From positions 1 through 64,000 of the forward strand of contig JALXCZ010000008.1 in the NCBI GenBank assembly GCA_026990595.1: a stretch of DNA of 64,000 nucleotides. The letters run 5' to 3'. Below the pieces are notes generated by a model that made no database searches, was not told where the DNA came from, and saw nothing but the letters and a program-made list of their open reading frames with translations. Origin of the DNA: Sulfurovum sp. Lineage in GTDB: Bacteria; Campylobacterota; Campylobacteria; Campylobacterales; Sulfurovaceae. Made by a program: the position numbers and the translations under genes. Positions 38,546 through 58,775 of the stretch are shown here, piece by piece. Within the stretch, counting starts at the first letter, position 1. The number at the start of each line of letters is the position of its first letter.

Positions 38546-39814
38546 TTAAAGTGCCTGATAGGCAATATCAGTACGACACTGCTTCCCTGCAAAATGCACT
38601 TGTCCTACCAGCATATAGGCACGTTTTTGTGCTTCTTTAATACTCTCTCCAAGTCCGACACATACAAGTACTCTTCCACCGATTGCATAGAGTTTACCAT
38701 CTTCTCCGCGACTTACTCCCGCATAAGAAATATGGGCATTTCCTTCTAACTCATCATGATGGATATCATCAACAATGATCTCAGCTGCGGGTGTACTTTT
38801 GTAAGGATAATCCTTGCTTGCCATCACTACACCTACTGCATATTTGTCGTGAAACTCTATTTTTGCACTTTTAAGATCACCTGTGGCAGCTTTATAGAAA
38901 AGTTCACTTGCAGGTGATTTAAGAAGAGGCATCAACTCCTCACACTCAGGATCGCCAAAACGCACATTATATTCAAGAATAATAGGCTCCCCTTTGACCA
39001 CCATCACCCCAATAAAAAGGACACCTGTGAATGGCATACCTTCAGATTCCATACCTTTTAATGTCGGTTCTATCACTCTTTCATTAAGTTTACGATAGAT
39101 ATCATCATTAACAAGCGGTGTGGGCGCATAGGCTCCCATACCACCCGTATTTGGTCCTTCATCATTATTGAGCAGCCTTTTATGATCCTGTGCAGCAGGG
39201 AGCACCACATAATTTTTTCCGTCACAGATCGCAAAGACAGAAAGTTCATATCCGTCAAGAAACTCTTCTACAACGATAGAAGTTCCGGCCTCACCAAAAG
39301 AGTTTCCAGAAAGCATCTCTCCTGCAGCTTTTTTTGCTTCGTCATGACTTTGTGCAATGATCACACCTTTACCTCCGCAAAGTCCATCCGCTTTTACAAC
39401 GATCGGTGCTTCCAAAGTATTGATGAAGGAATAGGCATCCTCAAGAGAGTCTGTTTCAATATATTTGGCTGTAGGAACATTATGGCGTGCAAGGAAATTT
39501 TTCATGAAAATTTTAGAACCTTCAAGCTGTGCCGCTTTTGAAGTAGGTCCAAAAATAGTTAAACCTCTCTCTTTAAAGACATCTACAATACCTTCAACAA
39601 GCGGTGCTTCCGGTCCAACTATCGTTAATTCGATCTGATTGGCTTCCACAAAATCAGCCAAGTCATTAAAATTACTGATAGCCAGATTTTCACCTAATAC
39701 ATCTGTTGCTCCGTTCCCCGGTGCAAAATAGATCTTCTGAACATTATCATCTTTCTTTAATGCCAAACCAATAGAGTATTCTCTACCACCACTACCTATG
39801 ATCAATACATTCAT
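38546..39814 (-). CDS. purD: Phosphoribosylamine-glycine ligase
   Basis: 422 residues, full length ATP-grasp enzyme that joins glycine to phosphoribosylamine in purine synthesis. It begins MNVLIIGSGGREYSIGLAL (usual GGREHA varied to GGREYS). ATP-grasp residues are in VVKADGLCGGKGVIIA, and metal/substrate segments in LEYNVRFGDPECEELMPLL. CGGAG lies upstream of the ATG. The region upstream holds a long hairpin and the candidate 6S RNA. Confidence 0.96.
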   Translation of the reverse strand: MNVLIIGSGGREYSIGLALKKDDNVQKIYFAPGNGATDVLGENLAISNFNDLADFVEANQIELTIVGPEAPLVEGIVDVFKERGLTIFGPTSKAAQLEGSKIFMKNFLARHNVPTAKYIETDSLEDAYSFINTLEAPIVVKADGLCGGKGVIIAQSHDEAKKAAGEMLSGNSFGEAGTSIVVEEFLDGYELSVFAICDGKNYVVLPAAQDHKRLLNNDEGPNTGGMGAYAPTPLVNDDIYRKLNERVIEPTLKGMESEGMPFTGVLFIGVMVVKGEPIILEYNVRFGDPECEELMPLLKSPASELFYKAATGDLKSAKIEFHDKYAVGVVMASKDYPYKSTPAAEIIVDDIHHDELEGNAHISYAGVSRGEDGKLYAIGGRVLVCVGLGESIKEAQKRAYMLVGQVHFAGKQCRTDIAYQAL

Positions 39815-39974: not shown

Positions 39975-40160
39975 ACCCCCGAGTGGCCGTCCTGTTTAAA
40001 GCCGGCCCTAAAAAGCCAACAGTGCAGGAGAGAGTCTCTCTTTAGGGGATGATTTCTCGTATAAAACTACACTCAAACGAAAACTTCCACACACCAAGAG
40101 ACTACATGTCCCACTAAGATTAATGTTGGACCCCATATACAGTCATCGAACCACTTAGGT
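39975..40160 (-). ncRNA. ssrS: Candidate 6S RNA
   Basis: About 186 nt with a rod-like fold. From the outside in: AGTGG pairs with CCACT, CCAACA with TGTTGG, and AGTCTCTT with the AGAGAGACT segment, with a TCGT/ACGA hairpin near the tip and an unpaired bubble between. A TATAAT box at 40168-40173 (minus strand) places a start near 40160. Length, bubble-in-rod shape and position next to purD fit 6S RNA, which sequesters sigma70 RNA polymerase. I recall 6S beside purD in relatives but did not verify it. End points are approximate. Confidence 0.55.
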
Positions 40161-41995: not shown

Positions 41996-44341
41996 ATGAA
42001 TCACATTGAAACAGAAATAGAGATAGAGGATAATGACTTGAGCCAAGCAATTGACAATACAGAGATATCATTTAAAGAACGACTTACCTACGATAAATTG
42101 AGTTTTTACTATATTTCACTGCCCATCATGCTTCTTGGTAACCTGATGGGTGCACTTCTCTTAAGTGCTATTCAATTAAATGTTGTTGATCTCTATTCAA
42201 TCGGTATCTGGCTGAGCATCAGTATTATTATGTTTTTCTATAGTTTATACCAATACTCTTTATTTAAAAATGAGACTGAGGAGAACAAACTAAAGAACTC
42301 TGATATATGGTTCGATAAATATTATACAAATATACTCATCAACGGTATTGTATGGGGGAGCAGTGCATTTTTACTCTTCCCCGAATCAAATCTCCTCAAT
42401 CAAATGATCGTTATCTTCTTCCTTTTTGCCATTGGTTTCTCGGCTATGGGGATCCTTGCTTCGAAACGTGATCTGCTGCTTACCTACATTTTGGTAACGT
42501 ATGCCCCAATAATTCTGCGTCTGTTTTTTATGGAAGATGCACTTTATAAGACCATAGCCTATGCCATACTTGCATTGATACTTATTATGTTACTTGTTGC
42601 AAACTATTATGGAAAAGTGATCAATAATGCACTGAACAGCCGACAGCATTTTATCACTATTAAACATACACATGAAAAACTCAAAGAGCGTTTCTTCTCT
42701 CTGTTCGAACGTGCACCTGTAGGAATATATTATTATAATGAAGCATTGGAGCTTGAAGATATCAATACGCATTTCATGCAAATGAATAAAGTAGAAAAGA
42801 AAGAATCTCTTATTGGCTTGGATCTGCATGCTTTAAGCAATAAACAGATCGTACATGCGCATGAAGATGTATTTAAAGGGAAGACAGGGAATTACCGTGG
42901 TCCCTTTGAGGCACTACATAATCAAAATCTTTATGTAAAACTTTCAACAGTTCCTATGATCAATGCTGACGGTAAAGTTGCAGGAGGTATCACTATCATC
43001 AATGACATTACCAATGAAGTAACAGCAAAAGAGAAAATGATACGCAATGCCTATTATGACCTGCTTACCAACATACCTAACCGTACCCTTCTTATGGATA
43101 AACTTAAAAGTTTTATTACAAACAAAAGAGACCATGAAGAGTATGCAGCATTGCTCTTTTTGGATATTGACAACTTTAAGAAAGTCAATGAAACCTTTGG
43201 GCATGATGTTGGTGATTCTCTGCTCAAGCAAGTGGTACAACGAATAGAAGATGTAATAGGGAGTCGTGAGACTTTTGCAAGAGTAAGCGGTAATAAATTC
43301 GTTATTCTTATCCCCTCTTTGCATATGGATAAAACACTCTCTGAAGAGATGACGGTCAAATATATATCAACGATCAATAAGCATTTCACACAACCGCTTA
43401 ATGTCGCAGGAGAAGAATACCATTTAAGTTTTACCATCGGTGTAGTACTTTTCAACAACAGTGATGCTTCCGCCTTTGATCTTCTTAAGCGTGCAGAAAC
43501 AGCCATGTACGAAGCAAAGAGAAATGCCCGAGGAACAAGTGAGTTTTATACAAGCAGTATGAGTGCCGATACAAAAGAACAGCTTATGCTTGAAAATGAT
43601 ATCCACAAAGCCATGAAGAATAATGAATTATCCATCTATTATCAGCCACAGTTAGATGTTCAGGAAAATAAGATCATTGGCGCAGAGGCATTGATACGCT
43701 GGAAACACTCCCAAAAAGGTTTTATTCCACCTTCAAAATTCATCCCTGTTGCAGAAGAGAGCGGTATTATCATTAAGCTGGAAGAGTGGATCTTCGATAG
43801 AACCCTAAGTGAAATCAAGGCTTTAAGCCAAAGAGAAGAAGGTTTTAATTTAGACCATATTGCTATCAATGTGAGTACTATCCATTTTCTTCAACCACAT
43901 TTTGTAGAACAACTGATGCTGCTTGTCAATAAGCATAAGGTAAAACCGGAATGGATCGAATTAGAGATCACAGAAAGCGGTATTATGCGTAACATTGATG
44001 ATGCTATAGCAAAGATAAAAGAGTTAAAGAAGTTCGGGTTCAGTTTTTCCATTGATGATTTCGGTACAGGGTATTCTTCTTTGGCCTATCTTAAGAAACT
44101 TCCTGTAGATATGATCAAGATAGATCAATCTTTTATCTTTAATATGAATCAGAACAAAGGTGATGCAATGATCGTTGAATCGGTTGTTGCTATAGGACAG
44201 AAGTTTGATCTGAAAATCTTGGCTGAAGGTGTAGAGAATGATGCGACATTAAACTATCTTAAGATCATAAAATGTGATCTTTATCAAGGAAACTTCGGAT
44301 ATAAACCTATGCCACTGGAAGAGTTTATAAAAATTGTGTAA
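41996..44341 (+). CDS. Membrane PAS-GGDEF-EAL protein, likely c-di-GMP phosphodiesterase
   Basis: 781 residues. The N-terminus has about six membrane helices (roughly 33-205, MASE-like), then a PAS domain (about 225-335), a GGDEF domain (about 345-505) and an EAL domain (about 525-775). The GGDEF active-site loop reads SGNKF near 432, so cyclase activity is unlikely. The EAL domain keeps EALIRW near 562, DDFGTGYSSL and KIDQSF, so it is probably an active phosphodiesterase. It stands alone with a ~190-base upstream gap and ends at a bidirectional-looking terminator. Confidence 0.92.
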   Translation: MNHIETEIEIEDNDLSQAIDNTEISFKERLTYDKLSFYYISLPIMLLGNLMGALLLSAIQLNVVDLYSIGIWLSISIIMFFYSLYQYSLFKNETEENKLKNSDIWFDKYYTNILINGIVWGSSAFLLFPESNLLNQMIVIFFLFAIGFSAMGILASKRDLLLTYILVTYAPIILRLFFMEDALYKTIAYAILALILIMLLVANYYGKVINNALNSRQHFITIKHTHEKLKERFFSLFERAPVGIYYYNEALELEDINTHFMQMNKVEKKESLIGLDLHALSNKQIVHAHEDVFKGKTGNYRGPFEALHNQNLYVKLSTVPMINADGKVAGGITIINDITNEVTAKEKMIRNAYYDLLTNIPNRTLLMDKLKSFITNKRDHEEYAALLFLDIDNFKKVNETFGHDVGDSLLKQVVQRIEDVIGSRETFARVSGNKFVILIPSLHMDKTLSEEMTVKYISTINKHFTQPLNVAGEEYHLSFTIGVVLFNNSDASAFDLLKRAETAMYEAKRNARGTSEFYTSSMSADTKEQLMLENDIHKAMKNNELSIYYQPQLDVQENKIIGAEALIRWKHSQKGFIPPSKFIPVAEESGIIIKLEEWIFDRTLSEIKALSQREEGFNLDHIAINVSTIHFLQPHFVEQLMLLVNKHKVKPEWIELEITESGIMRNIDDAIAKIKELKKFGFSFSIDDFGTGYSSLAYLKKLPVDMIKIDQSFIFNMNQNKGDAMIVESVVAIGQKFDLKILAEGVENDATLNYLKIIKCDLYQGNFGYKPMPLEEFIKIV

Positions 44342-51156: not shown

Positions 51157-51606
51157 ATGAAAAAAGTGTCTGTTATTTTGTCTCATCTTAGCAATCAACC
51201 TCAATTTAAAGTTTTAAAGCAACAGAACTGCTATAAGAAGTATATCTCACTTCTGGGAGCAAAATGGCAAAAAGCAATTGCATTCATTTACATAAAGAAT
51301 GATACACTTTTTGTTGCAGTCACACATCCGGGCTTTAAAATGGAACTTAATTATAATAGAGATTTATTAAAAAGCGTATTAACACAGCTTACAACCCATG
51401 ATCAGGAATGTGAAATGCTCAAAGCCCAAAAGGTAGTAGTTTTTCACAGTAAATATCATACCATAGAGAAAAATGAAGGTAATGCAACGACCATACCTTA
51501 TTATAATGAACTGGCTTCGAGTGATTTTGACATTTACACTGAAGATACAGAGCTCAAAGAGAAATTTGAAAAAATCAAAGCAGATATTAAAGCGCAGCTT
51601 CCATGA
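51157..51606 (+). CDS. DUF721 (DciA-like) protein
   Basis: 149 residues from the ATG at 51157; the frame runs 17 codons further up without support. The core GAKWQKAIAFIYIKNDTLFV and VAVTHPGFKMELNYN resembles the DUF721 domain, which in DciA helps load the replicative helicase. The C-terminus is charged. It overlaps the uvrC start by 4 bases (ATGA). Divergent from nadB. Confidence 0.65.
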   Translation: MKKVSVILSHLSNQPQFKVLKQQNCYKKYISLLGAKWQKAIAFIYIKNDTLFVAVTHPGFKMELNYNRDLLKSVLTQLTTHDQECEMLKAQKVVVFHSKYHTIEKNEGNATTIPYYNELASSDFDIYTEDTELKEKFEKIKADIKAQLP

Positions 51607-53396
51607 AACAGATCATCCAGAATCTTCCTGACTCTGCCGGGGTTTACCAATATTTTGACGCCAATGGGAAGCTGCTCTATGTAGGTAAAGCAAAAAATCT
51701 TAAAAACCGTGTTAAAAGCTACTGGCGGTTTACTCCCCGACTCACACCAAATCCCAGCCAGAGTTCCCGCATCATTAAAATGCTTCATGAAGCACAGAGT
51801 CTGGAATATATTGTAGTGGGAACCGAAGAAGATGCACTCATTTTAGAAAACTCCCTTATCAAACAGCTTAAACCCAAATACAATATTCTTCTGCGTGATG
51901 ACAAGACCTACCCCTACATTTACATTGATGAATCTGTGGATTACCCACGATTTGAAATTACCAGAAAAGTGGTAAAAGGCAAAAATATCACCTATTACGG
52001 TCCTTTTCCTTCCGGCGGAAAAGCACTGTATGATGCTTTGTATGAAGTCTACCCTCTTATTCAGAAAAAATCTTGCCTTAAAGAAGGAAAAGCCTGTCTT
52101 TTCTACCAGATAAAAAAATGCTTGGCTCCGTGTGAGGGGAAAGTAACTCCTTTGGAATATGCCAAGATAGTAGATCAGGCAAAAGAGTCTATCAGCAAAC
52201 GTAAAAAACTCATTACTATACTTGAAGAGAAAATGACAAACCTTGCACTACAGGAACGTTATGAAGAAGCAGGAGCAATGAGAGATTCCATTCAGACTAT
52301 CTCCTCCCTGACTATTACTTCCAATATTGATCTTGCCAATACACTTGACTTGGATATTTTTGCCATACAAAACGGTGACGAACGGGGAGTAATTGTGAAA
52401 CTTTTTATGCGTCAAGGAAAAATTATCTCTTCTACACATACCTACTTTAGGCATACCCATATTTTTGATGAAAATGAAGCCTATAAACAGGCACTTCTGG
52501 AATTCTATACTATAGATACTCCTCATATCTCTCAACAGATACTCACTGCCCATACCTTTGAAGACTCGCAGCAGGTCTCCCAAAGTCTCAGCATCCGCTT
52601 TGATAAAAAAATAGAAATACTTACTCCCCAAAGAGGAGCAAAAGCCAAGCTTGTTTCACTTGCATTGCAAAACTGTGAGGAGCTGCTGCGTAAAAAACAA
52701 AATGACACCATCATGGAACAGAAGATCGCTGATCTTTTTGATCTTTCAGTCATACCATACCGCATAGAGACTTTTGACAACTCTCATATGATGGGGGTCG
52801 CTATTGTCGGAGGAATGGTTGTTTGGAATGAAAATAAATGGGATAAGTCCAGCTATAGACGTTATGCATTAGATGCCAGAGATGAATACGGACAGATGAA
52901 AGAGATGCTTTCACGTCGAATAGAGAAATTTTCCAGTGAACCTGCACCTGATCTATGGATACTTGATGGAGGACAGGCCAACTTCAATCTTGCTAAAGCA
53001 CTGTTACAAGAGGCACATGTCAATCTTGATGTTATAGCCATAGCAAAAGAGAAGCTTGACAGCAAGGCACACCGTGCAAAAGGTGCAGCAAGAGATATCA
53101 TCTATTCAACACAAGGTATTGTTGAACTCAAACCCAATGACAAACGGCTTCACTGGATACAGAGACAAAGAGATGAAGCACACCGCTATGCTATCACCTA
53201 TCATCAAAATAAAAAAAGAAAAGAAGATACACAAATTTCACTACTTAATAAAAAAGGGATCGGGAAAGCCTCTGTTAAAAAACTGATTGATTATTTTGGT
53301 ACATTCGAAGCGATAGAAAATGCATCATTTGAAACTATTCGGCAGGTTACCAACAGGCAAATTGCCACTATTTTAAAAGAAAAGGATATTCATTGA
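51603..53396 (+). CDS. uvrC: Excinuclease ABC subunit C
   Basis: 597 residues. The GIY-YIG nuclease domain starts at residue 10 (SAGVYQYFDANGKLLYVGK). A UVR motif (EERYEEAGAMRDSI) lies near 215, the RNase H-like endonuclease region (ETFDNSHMMG and WILDGGQANF) near 390-460, and a C-terminal HhH pair (KKGIGKASVKKLIDYFG). It makes the dual incisions in nucleotide excision repair. Translation is coupled to the DUF721 gene. Confidence 0.97.
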   Translation: MKQIIQNLPDSAGVYQYFDANGKLLYVGKAKNLKNRVKSYWRFTPRLTPNPSQSSRIIKMLHEAQSLEYIVVGTEEDALILENSLIKQLKPKYNILLRDDKTYPYIYIDESVDYPRFEITRKVVKGKNITYYGPFPSGGKALYDALYEVYPLIQKKSCLKEGKACLFYQIKKCLAPCEGKVTPLEYAKIVDQAKESISKRKKLITILEEKMTNLALQERYEEAGAMRDSIQTISSLTITSNIDLANTLDLDIFAIQNGDERGVIVKLFMRQGKIISSTHTYFRHTHIFDENEAYKQALLEFYTIDTPHISQQILTAHTFEDSQQVSQSLSIRFDKKIEILTPQRGAKAKLVSLALQNCEELLRKKQNDTIMEQKIADLFDLSVIPYRIETFDNSHMMGVAIVGGMVVWNENKWDKSSYRRYALDARDEYGQMKEMLSRRIEKFSSEPAPDLWILDGGQANFNLAKALLQEAHVNLDVIAIAKEKLDSKAHRAKGAARDIIYSTQGIVELKPNDKRLHWIQRQRDEAHRYAITYHQNKKRKEDTQISLLNKKGIGKASVKKLIDYFGTFEAIENASFETIRQVTNRQIATILKEKDIH

Positions 53397-53421: not shown

Positions 53422-53565
53422 CTTACCGTTATAAAACCTTTTTCATATTTTTTACTAGAAAAATGATCTTTTTCATGCTATTTTTAGTTTATTTGTTATA
53501 AGGTTATAGTAGGAAAGTTATATCAAAACTTATATTCACTGAAATAAGATATTTGAATTTATAAT

Positions 53566-53645
53566 TTACGAGACAAAGCTAAACTCATTGTGAAGTGAGG
53601 GCAGAAAACCATGGGTCTCTTGAAGATTGCCAGGTTACCAGAGTA
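53566..53645 (+). promoter_or_regulatory. Candidate GEMM-I cyclic di-GMP riboswitch
   Basis: In the leader of the PAS gene: AAAGCTAAA leads into a stem CTCATT/AGTGAG closed by the GNRA tetraloop GTGA (53584-53599). Then GGCAGAAAACC (53600-53610), GGGTCT (53613-53618) pairing with AGA-TTGCC, and the 3' block GCCAGGTTACC (53629-53639). This order matches the GEMM-I consensus (AAAC - GNRA hairpin - GG-CGCAAAGCC - GGGTCT - GCCGGGTTACC). Downstream, CCTTT near 53670 can pair with AAAGG at the ribosome site, suggesting translational control. The rest of 53397-53705 holds only AT-rich leader and a TATAAT at 53560. Confidence 0.7.
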
Positions 53646-53705
53646 GCATTATTACTTCTTCTGAAAACCCTTTCTTCAATTTTGACTCATTTAAAGGAGT
53701 ATCCT

Positions 53706-54122
53706 GTGCACACACCTGAGCCTATAGATGAAGAGTATACCTTTGAAAAAGGTCTGATCGTAAGTTCAACAAATCTTAAAGGTATCATTACCTATGCCAA
53801 TCGAAAGTTCTGTGAAATTTCAGGATACAGTAAGGATGAGCTTACAGGAAAGAATCACAATATCGTTAGACATCCAGATATGCCAAAAGCAGCATTCAAA
53901 GAAGTATGGAACACCATACAGGAAGGAAAAGAGTGGTCAGGCCTTGTAAAAAATCTTCGAAAAGACGGAAGATATTATTGGGTATATTCACATATCGCAC
54001 CTGTGAAAACGGATGATATGATCACAGGATATACTGCAGCAAGAAGACCTGCCGACGAAACAGAAATAGAAGAGATCATCCCTCTATACAGGGATATGTT
54101 AGAAAAAGAGAATCATTCATAA
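53706..54122 (+). CDS. PAS-domain signalling protein (Aer-like)
   Basis: 138 residues from a GTG at 53706 with AAGGAG 7 bases upstream; frames starting earlier would run through the riboswitch. One PAS domain covers about 18-125: IVSSTNLKGIITYANRKFC, then ISGYSKDELTGKNHNIVRHP and GRYYWVYSHIAPVK. This resembles the redox-sensing PAS of Aer-type receptors, but there is no membrane or methyl-accepting domain. It probably delivers a signal to the kinase in the same operon. Confidence 0.85.
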   Translation: MHTPEPIDEEYTFEKGLIVSSTNLKGIITYANRKFCEISGYSKDELTGKNHNIVRHPDMPKAAFKEVWNTIQEGKEWSGLVKNLRKDGRYYWVYSHIAPVKTDDMITGYTAARRPADETEIEEIIPLYRDMLEKENHS

Positions 54123-55613: not shown

Positions 55614-58600
55614 ATGACCATACGAAATAGACTTAAGCTCATTGGACTTGTACCGATTGTACTTCTTATCTTATTATCAAGTTATTTCTTTGTAACTTCA
55701 TATTTGAATTTTGAAAAAGCACACGCTTTAAAAACCGTCTTAAGTAACAATGCCTATCTTGGCAATACATTGGTACAAATAGGTAAAGAACGTGGTCTTA
55801 CTGCCCTTTACATGGGAAGCGAAGGAAAAGAGTTTGGTGATTCTTTAAAGAAACAAAGAACCGATACAGACAGATCTTTTCAAACACTTAAAAAAAATCT
55901 GGTTGTTAGAGATACAAGTTATATTCCGCTACTTCTAAAACTTTTAGGTGAAAATCAACCTATAGATAATGGTAAATACCAAAAATTACTTCACAATCTT
56001 GGAAAAATATCCGGTCTTAGAAAAACAGTAGATGCAAACAGTAAAGATTTTAAACATATCTTTTTTGACGGCTACACTAAAACATTTGCCACACCCATAC
56101 TTGACAACCTTTCCCAAATAGATAATTTTGTATTAAATACTGAAATGTCCTCCCTTATTTCCACACTTTCCCAACTTTCGATCGCAAAAGAGAATAGTGC
56201 TCTCGAAAGAGGCTTTGTTGCTTACTATATGACAAAAAAAGCTTCTATGTCCTTTGAAGAGATCGCGTTATGGGATCAGTTCAAAACCAAAGCAAATGCC
56301 TTTGATCTTAAACAGGTAAGCAACCCTGATCTTCATCAAAAGTTGGCAAAGATATTCAATGCTCCCAAAGCCAAAGAACTTCTTACAGAGTTGGCAGAGA
56401 CATCTTCTGCCATTCAGACAGATGTTGATAACGGAGATTATGCGGAAGAAGCTATGGATTGGTTTGCCCTGCAGACCCAAAAAATTTCTTTACTTTCAAA
56501 AGCTGAACTGATAACCTCCAATGCTTTATGGAAAAAGAGTGATACCTATTTGCAAAAACAACTTCTTTTGCTTGCCATTGCTACAGCAATCTGGTTATTG
56601 AGTTTTATTCTGGCATTCCTCGGATATGCTACAACACGTGATATTTCCAGAAATATTAAAGAACTTGAAGATGTACTGAATAAAGCAGTCGATGAAATGA
56701 AGAGCAGTGAGCATTATCTTGCCTCAGATACTGCTGCGATAGAAAATATTGAACTTGATACGCATGAGGGAACAAAAGAAGCCTATAGATTCCTTGAAAC
56801 CCTGGTAGACAATGCAAAACAAGATAAACTTACAGCCCTTCAGGCCAATGAAGCCAAATCACTTTTCCTTGCCAATATGTCCCATGAGATCCGTACACCT
56901 CTGAACGGTATTGTCGGCTTTACTGAAATTTTAAGAAGTACAGATCTGACTGCAGAACAAGATGAATTCCTTTCCATCATTGATAAAAGTTCGGAAAATC
57001 TTCTGAGTATTATCAACAATATTCTTGATCTTTCCAAAATTGAAAGCAATAAGATCGAGATCGAGAATATCGTATTTGATGCCCAGGAAGAGTTTGAAAG
57101 TGCCATTGAAACCTATTCTGTAGGAGCCGCTGAGAAGAATATTGATCTTAATTTCTATATGGATCCGATGATCAGTAAAAAACTTAAAGGTGACCCAACC
57201 AAGATCAAAGAGATCCTGATCAATCTTCTTTCCAATGCAATCAAATTTACAAGTCACGGCGGAGAGATCAATCTTGAAATAAGAAAAACACAGGCTGAAG
57301 ATGATCTTAATCCCAAGATCACTTTCTCTGTTCAGGATAATGGGATCGGTATGACAAAAGATCAACAATCCCGTATCTTTGATGCCTTCTCTCAGGCAGA
57401 TGTCTCTGTTACACGTAAATATGGAGGTACAGGACTCGGATTAACGATCTCCAGTCAATTTGTTGAGCTTATGGGTGGGCATTTAGAACTTGAAAGTGCA
57501 AAAGACCACGGTACAACATTCTATTTCTCCTTACCTCTTGAAGAGATCACATCTACTGATATGAATTATACGCATGCCTTTAAAAATATGACTATCGGTA
57601 AATATGAACAGGATGTTCCTACAAAACTTGACAGTTATCTGGAAACATATTTTGAATACTTTGGACCAACTGTCAAACATTTTGAATCTGTTGCTGATCT
57701 TAAAGAGTTGAATGATAATGATGTTTGCAAGAGTTACTGGATAGATATCGATAAAGCCAAGCAGAATATTATGGATGCTATTGCCAATATTGACAAATCA
57801 AAACTGATCGTTATAGCAAATGTAACCAGCCGTAATAAGATCGAAGAGATGGGTATATCACAGGACAATGTTATATTCAAACCTGTCACACTTTCCAAGC
57901 TGAAAAATATACTCAGTAACAGTGCCAATACAACACCTCAACTCATTGAGGAAGCTTTACCTGCACATGCTACGAAATTTGATGCGAAGATACTGGTAAC
58001 AGAAGACAATATTATTAACCAAAAACTTATCAAACGAATCCTTGAAGAGCATGGTATCACTGTTGATCTGGCAAATAACGGTCTTGAATCTTTTGAAAAA
58101 CGCAGAAATAATGATTACGACCTTCTTTTTATGGATATCCAGATGCCTGTTATGGACGGTATTGAGGCGACCCATGAGATACTTGACTATGAAGAGGATG
58201 AAGAGATCCCTCATGTGCCTATTGTAGCATTGACTGCCAATGCACTGAAAGGAGACAGAGAAAAATTCCTGGGTGAAGGTATGGATGAGTATATCACTAA
58301 ACCTATTGAGACAAGTGAATTGCTGTATGTTCTCAATAAATTCCTCTCCGATAAATCAAAAACTGTTTCTTCTGAAGGATCAGTTTTACCAAAAATAGAA
58401 GATAAGGCAACCAAGACAAGTAATAAACGTAAAAAAGAATCTTCACATAAAGAAGAGCAAGACAGTATCATATCTTTAGATGAAACACCATCTGAAGATC
58501 ACGCTTTAGACAAAAAGATACTGATCGCCAAAAAACTCTTTTTAGAGAGTCGTGTTCTAACAAAAGTGATCGACAATCTTGGATATGCATATGATACTTT

Positions 58601-58775
58601 AAGCAGTGTGGATCTTCTTGAAAATGAACTTGCATTAGGAAAATATGACATACTCTTTACCGATGAAGAACTCATTACCGACAGCATCCGTCAATCTAAT
58701 GATAATCTGGCTATAATCACGACCGTAAATTCAAAAGAAGAGATACAAGATCTTATTAAAAAAAATAGAGGATAA
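55614..58775 (+). CDS. Hybrid sensor histidine kinase with NIT-like sensor domain
   Basis: 1053 residues. One membrane helix (about 11-30), a ~280-residue periplasmic domain resembling the nitrate/nitrite-sensing NIT domain ([18 protein letters not shown]), and a second helix (about 318-340). HisKA follows with H424 in [10 protein letters not shown], HATPase with NLLSNAIKF and GTGLGLTIS, then a receiver with phospho-Asp near 840 in [11 protein letters not shown]. The last ~90 residues ([20 protein letters not shown]) look like a second receiver without the usual acidic pocket. It acts with the HPt and receiver proteins beside it. Confidence 0.88.

Follow-up and report, generated by a model that had tools for sequence, protein, structure and literature searches.

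A predicted c-di-GMP class I riboswitch in the leader of a PAS-HPt-hybrid kinase-receiver operon of Sulfurovum

Riboswitches of c-di-GMP class I (GEMM-I, RF01051) include Vc2 and Vc1 of Vibrio cholerae and Cd1 of Clostridioides difficile, and in Vc2 the ligand is contacted by G20, A47 and C92 while the helices are joined by the pair C44-G83, as described in parts of PMC4744006 and PMC3764141. An earlier case of a two-component operon under such a riboswitch is cmrRST of C. difficile, where, according to passages in PMC6837544, the element Cdi-2-2 likewise precedes histidine kinase and response regulator genes; in that system the riboswitch acts as an activator, the regulators are DNA-binding and there is an invertible switch as well. 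In Campylobacter jejuni, CetB carries an Aer-type PAS domain as a separate protein (PMC2628428), and the part of PMC3847290 that deals with the 5′ leaders of this species reports no riboswitch except TPP. The literature searched yielded no report of c-di-GMP riboswitches from Sulfurovum, Sulfurimonas or Epsilonproteobacteria.

Sulfurovum is a relative of Campylobacter, and its lineage is chemolithotrophic and has small genomes. We analysed a 64-kb stretch of a Sulfurovum genome (hereafter the window), for which an earlier note had claimed a GEMM-I riboswitch at 53566-53705. This claim was borne out by cmscan of the whole window, which placed an Rfam aptamer at 53569-53643 on the plus strand: RF03167 (c-di-GMP-I-GGC) matches with 60.2 bits (gathering score 59, E 1.1e-11), and the GEMM-I model proper, RF01051, gives 55.2 bits at the same position, over its gathering score of 35. 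Each sequence piece that the note had named lies where it had put it (Table 1). We also built our own covariance model from 27 relatives, namely 15 copies of the source genome (that of the window included) and 12 orthologs. The window aptamer scores 85.2 bits with this model, a non-independent value since the copy is inside the model; independent testing is provided by the Rfam scores. With filters off, our model found no second aptamer above 12.5 bits in the 64-kb window.

Table 1. Features of the riboswitch locus; positions are those of the window.
Feature	Position	Strand	Basis
ORF taken to be uvrC from its sequence family; conserved upstream neighbour fixing synteny	51603-53396	+	tblastn relative upstream of PAS in 25/30 fetched loci
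c-di-GMP-I (GEMM-I) riboswitch aptamer	53569-53643	+	RF03167, RF01051 and own model (scores in text)
G, Vc2 G20 equivalent (ligand contact)	53578	+	G in 114/114; role in parts of PMC4744006, PMC3764141
P2 stem (53579-80/53603-04 and 53584-89/53594-99)	53579-53604	+	8/8 pairs changed on both sides, 114 sequences
GUGA tetraloop of P2	53590-53593	+	sequence
GGCAGAAAACC core	53600-53610	+	sequence
C, Vc2 C44 equivalent	53602	+	C in 114/114; partner 53629
A, Vc2 A47 equivalent (stacks with ligand guanines)	53605	+	A in 114/114; RF03167 consensus G
P3 stem	53607-53636	+	ten pairs, 98.1% of cells paired, 114 sequences
GGGTCT	53613-53618	+	sequence
G, Vc2 G83 equivalent	53629	+	G in 114/114
GCCAGGTTACC	53629-53639	+	sequence
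C, Vc2 C92 equivalent (ligand contact)	53638	+	C in 112/114, U in 2
Candidate anti-Shine-Dalgarno UACUUCUU (orthologs CACUUCUU)	53653-53660	+	best upstream Shine-Dalgarno complement in window leader
CCTTT, earlier proposed anti-Shine-Dalgarno	53669-53673	+	2/14 orthologous leaders only
AAAGG, earlier proposed partner of CCTTT	53693-53697	+	sequence
Shine-Dalgarno AAAGGAGU	53693-53700	+	sequence; just 5′ of GTG start where orthologs align
Aer/CetB-like single-domain PAS protein, 138 aa, GTG start 53706	53706-54122	+	Pfam PAS_3 4.4e-18; ortholog starts
HPt protein, 486 aa	54140-55600	+	Pfam Hpt 6.2e-06, 26.8 bits, cut-off 24.6
Hybrid histidine kinase, 1053 aa: NIT sensor, HisKA, HATPase_c, receiver	55614-58775	+	Pfam
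Single-domain receiver (response regulator), 121 aa	58781-59146	+	Pfam Response_reg 5.1e-25

The window copy resembles Vc2, Vc1 and Cd1 in its fold and has P2, P3, the interhelical C44-G83 pair and a GNRA-type loop, all of them features of RF01051; every ligand-contact base and all 18 nested pairs are also intact. Unlike Vc2, it has U-A in place of the C22-G45 pair, a replacement seen in 13 of 113 distinct copies, and it further differs from the RF01051 examples in a weak P1 and in a candidate conserved cis anti-Shine-Dalgarno element. Over 27 sequences, standard pairing at the 18 nested positions and between the helices is kept in 98.4% of cells, and ten pairs are changed on both sides. Over 114 sequences, which comprise all matches in 96 loci in an alignment that had been fitted to the structure, the nested pairs are standard in 98.6% of cells and fourteen are changed on both sides. 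As a control, the partners were slid by 1-3 columns, which lowered pairing to 27-48% in these two sets, and covariation in both sets is far above shuffles and slid controls. By eye, P1 of the window copy consists of G53572-C53639, an internal loop, and the pairs C53569-G53643, A53568-U53644 and U53567-A53645. Directly upstream of the aptamer lies TATAAT (53560-53565), a possible -10 box, from which the RNA would start within the P1 5′ strand and leave much of that strand untranscribed; a scan of 126 copies showed no peak at a fixed -10 promoter position ahead of the aptamers.

The downstream genes are as the note had described them, encoding by Pfam a PAS protein, an HPt protein, a hybrid kinase and a receiver. 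Among solved structures, the PAS protein is closest to the PAS domain of the aerotaxis receptor Aer (8dik, E 5.1e-35), followed by 31cj, 3ewk and NifL 2gj3, and we take 3ewk and NifL to be flavin redox PAS domains. From its relation to the Aer PAS domain, the protein would be of the Aer/CetB type and may bind FAD. It resembles CetB in being a separate protein. Unlike in the CetB/CetA system and for Aer of E. coli, its gene stands in an HPt-kinase-receiver operon under a riboswitch, with no chemoreceptor gene adjoining it, and unlike cmrRST, the operon combines PAS, HPt, hybrid kinase and lone receiver genes. Elsewhere in the window, a purD RNA motif (RF01069, 89.2 bits) lies at 39977-40105 on the minus strand upstream of an ORF on that strand (38546-39814) that reads by eye as purD; the purD RNA is described in a part of PMC3847290 as the 6S RNA homolog in Campylobacter and Helicobacter.

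The HPt protein was matched in 72 of 78 genus genomes, the source genome included, and the named records carrying the operon are mostly Sulfurovum and Sulfurovaceae. The PAS gene is present in 26 of 29 fetched loci other than our own. It is immediately preceded by an Rfam-level aptamer in 13 of the 26, in a uvrC-leader-PAS-HPt-HK arrangement, and lacks one in the other 13. The aptamer is found at the uvrC-PAS site in at least 22 of the 72 genomes with an HPt match, a count made by comparing two match lists by eye and a lower bound because the aptamer was counted among the best matches listed. The median uvrC-PAS spacer is 142 nt without the aptamer (13 loci) and 296 nt with it (12 loci, own included). 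Searching 16 loci without aptamer with our model at E up to 10 gave no convincing remnant; the one 11-bit match, in locus L054 (L numbers denote individual loci), lies inside another gene. In a kinase tree of 27 rows, 14 of them with aptamer, presence changes five times, at least three of these changes being forced by well-supported branches.

The fold of the aptamer, its contact bases, position and conservation and its membership of a genome-wide set come directly from the computation. The class of riboswitch is already known, the window copy is a further instance of it, and Rfam models already find such copies. The covariance models, the conserved contact bases and the conserved synteny support a c-di-GMP class I riboswitch on the PAS-HPt-hybrid kinase-receiver operon, with ligand binding as a prediction, and from its sequence a c-di-GMP switch very probably acts on this operon. 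That the leader holds a canonical riboswitch of this class we hold with good confidence, which does not extend to the inferred mechanism set out below.

For the expression platform, the earlier note had proposed a CCTTT/AAAGG pairing that hides the ribosome site. This pairing can form in only two of the 14 orthologous leaders (the window and L027), and a conserved element, (C)ACUUCUU, is a better candidate anti-Shine-Dalgarno than CCTTT. The region between aptamer and start differs among the 14 leaders except for this element, whose CTTCT core is found in 13 of them. In the window and in most orthologs, no other upstream stretch complements the Shine-Dalgarno better, the exceptions being L031, clearly, and L027, which uses another pyrimidine stretch. 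Of all 7-mers in the 100 nt that follow the aptamer copies, ACTTCTT is the most strongly enriched, occurring in 15 of 100 leaders compared to 2.0 in shuffles (9 of 91 compared to 1.8 when orthologs of the operon are excluded) and in none of 98 stretches upstream of the copies. Another 7-mer, CTTTTTC, is enriched in the first 100 nt behind the 91 non-orthologous copies (16 compared to 2.3 in shuffles); in these copies it may belong to terminators or to anti-Shine-Dalgarno elements made up of pyrimidines.

When the aptamer was enforced during folding, the accessibility of the Shine-Dalgarno fell in 13 of 14 leaders (mean -0.152), with L031 changing in the opposite direction; shuffled spacers gave a mean of -0.003, and none of 60 shuffled sets was as low. 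The change in the window leader was -0.38, again lower than in any of 60 shuffles. The 14 leaders amount to fewer independent cases, given that they come from related orthologs, two of which hardly differ. With 30-60 coding bases included, the mean change shrank to between -0.005 and -0.070, and across twelve leader-end settings the mean was always negative and the window value ranged from -0.38 to +0.09; with 60 coding bases, ribosome-site access in the window leader was 0.39 free and 0.49 with the aptamer enforced, which is no drop. When folding was left free, the ensemble pairing of the element with the 3′ strand of P2 had a mean probability of 0.65-0.84 in eight of the 13 leaders containing the element and of 0.00-0.07 in the other five, among them the window, whose lowest-energy free fold has P3 disrupted and not the element paired with P2.

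Several other signals were looked for in the leaders. Two results count against the reading given below: duplex energies between the Shine-Dalgarno and its best partner were not beyond those of dinucleotide shuffles (z -1.96 to +1.13), and RNAalifold gave no consensus pairs in the 14 spacers. In its favour, by eye no hairpin followed by a T run was seen between aptamer and start. A swap test of pairing between aptamer and downstream sequence, using four segments, reached at best p 0.017 and was not counted as evidence; its 100 leaders came from 127 matches, of which 108 remained without near-copies and eight more were removed for a second aptamer close downstream. A hairpin between the aptamer and ACUUCUU was considered as a platform helix, but it is seen in several orthologs and missing in the window and L046; thus it is not essential and was rejected.

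In the mechanism that we favour, high c-di-GMP would lock P2 and P3, which would free the (C)ACUUCUU element to pair with the Shine-Dalgarno (53653-53660 with 53694-53701, eight pairs in the window) and would thereby lower translation of the operon. At low c-di-GMP, the aptamer strands would misfold with downstream sequence and the ribosome site would be freer. In this way c-di-GMP would tune how much of a phosphorelay with redox or energy (Aer-like PAS) and NIT-type inputs is made. We regard action at translation as fairly probable, and the folding tilts slightly towards a switch that is OFF rather than ON at high c-di-GMP, a direction that depends on the folding settings. Because of this sensitivity, OFF at translation is the better guess and nothing firmer. 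The same riboswitch could have another output, with c-di-GMP turning the operon ON or with control at transcription, which we regard as quite possible though short of probable. The direction rests on folding that varies with the coding length included, the window value changes sign, and both OFF (Cd1) and ON (class II) switches are known from passages in PMC4744006. Against this output stand the OFF response of 13 of 14 leaders at the first setting, the negative mean in all twelve settings and the complementarity of the conserved element to the Shine-Dalgarno.

A different ligand was also considered. Of the Rfam families, RF03167 scores highest at the locus, above its gathering score of 59 bits, as would be expected of a true c-di-GMP-I-GGC variant with altered ligand, yet its consensus G at the A47 position is absent: the window and all 114 copies have A. 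At gathering thresholds, moreover, ten of 13 orthologous leaders are reported as RF01051 and three as RF03167. The A at this position indicates an ordinary GEMM-I pocket despite RF03167 outscoring RF01051, and a GGC variant is hardly credible. We take "GGC", a name reportedly associated with a 2017 paper on riboswitch variants, to refer to the G at the A47 position. An A at the G20 position marks the cGAMP-sensing GEMM-I class. Geobacter GEMM-I relatives respond to cyclic AMP-GMP (in part of PMC5732950), and the base at G20 is said to favour one ligand without acting as a hard filter (in part of PMC9262584), so the aptamer might sense 3′,3′-cGAMP or both dinucleotides as certain Geobacter RNAs do; this selectivity position is nevertheless G in 114 of 114 copies, and we consider such sensing very unlikely. 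Both readings were dropped on these pocket bases. Ligand supply was counted in favour of a c-di-GMP riboswitch: GGDEF matches over cut-off number 16 in the genome, and the window holds one of these (43049-43531, inside ORF 41996-44341). A last alternative is a decayed aptamer, still recognisable but with binding lost through a too-weak P1. The short, interrupted P1, perhaps partly upstream of the transcript start, and the repeated changes of aptamer presence at this site within the genus would fit such decay; the intact contact bases, nested pairs and interhelical pair of the window copy, and an aptamer core nearly unchanged among orthologs throughout the genus, make it very unlikely. The GGDEF protein of the window (781 aa, 41996-44341, plus strand) is encoded about 9 kb upstream of the riboswitch, and its C-terminal part resembles by eye an EAL domain; it is a possible local source or sink of c-di-GMP.

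The canonical c-di-GMP riboswitch of the operon belongs to a large set. The earlier expectation of few such riboswitches in Campylobacterota did not hold, since RF01051 matches over cut-off number 16 in the source genome (2.05 Mb, 52 contigs), and members of the genus have up to 21 copies. A seventeenth, weak copy in the source genome scores 28.8 bits with RF03167 and 37.7 bits with our model. Across the family, one or more copies occur in 106 of 175 genomes, with a maximum of 21 in one genome; in a sample of the phylum, for which only ten candidates per genome were scored, a copy was found in 43 of 397 genomes (42 over cut-off), 25 of the 43 lying outside Sulfurovaceae. The first genes after the copies of the source genome encode, among others, four PAS proteins, an HD_5 protein, a PilJ sensor, a family 2 glycosyltransferase, an SdrD_B-repeat protein, a DUF2334 protein and several proteins without family. 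Genes of the glycosyltransferase, SdrD_B-repeat, HD_5, PilJ and PAS kinds are often c-di-GMP-controlled, and their place behind other copies was likewise counted in favour of a c-di-GMP switch. Five of the six Aer-like PAS genes of the genome are behind an aptamer: C8, C39, C29:23294 and C49 (contig handles) directly, and C29:23980 as the next gene behind C29:23294. The sixth, C30:12854, has no aptamer, the best score in 2.7 kb around the gene being 10.6 bits.

Other observations were made among the copies. The copy of the source genome with the best Rfam score (L018 2005-2097, equal to C3:21704-21796) precedes a 239-aa HD_5 protein, a possible relative of c-di-GMP phosphodiesterases and hence a possible feedback, and a similar-looking 239-aa protein stands behind an aptamer in L113. 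GEMM-I aptamers in the genus commonly occur as close pairs, their starts about 90-220 nt apart, which suggests tandem switches; L118 has copies at 148-225, 302-381, 1495-1572 and 1651-1729, and further pairs occur in L072, L083, L090, L100, L107, L109, L119, L120, L121, L122 and G077:C74:9246-9466. In L022 (3725-3801, minus strand), by eye, the aptamer 3′ end and downstream sequence make UUGCAUCGAUGCAA, and farther on GCAAUGACGGUU stands with AACCGUCAUUGC; these are candidates for two hairpins that exclude each other, and no clear gene follows.

About sixteen switches in so small a genome point to a large RNA-run signalling network. We did not find the size of the Sulfurovum set or its link to Aer-like PAS genes in the literature searched, and other papers may well list copies. 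As a tentative joint reading, Sulfurovum and its relatives may run a large c-di-GMP RNA regulon with single-domain Aer-like redox PAS proteins as favoured targets; at the operon, the conserved element would alternate between the P2 strand and the Shine-Dalgarno so that the amount of a redox phosphorelay follows c-di-GMP, a control that would have been gained or lost several times at one site. With more than a dozen copies in some genomes, the lineage offers a compact system for work on second-messenger regulons that run through RNA. The switch has also come or gone repeatedly at a single operon, which amounts to a natural experiment on its function.
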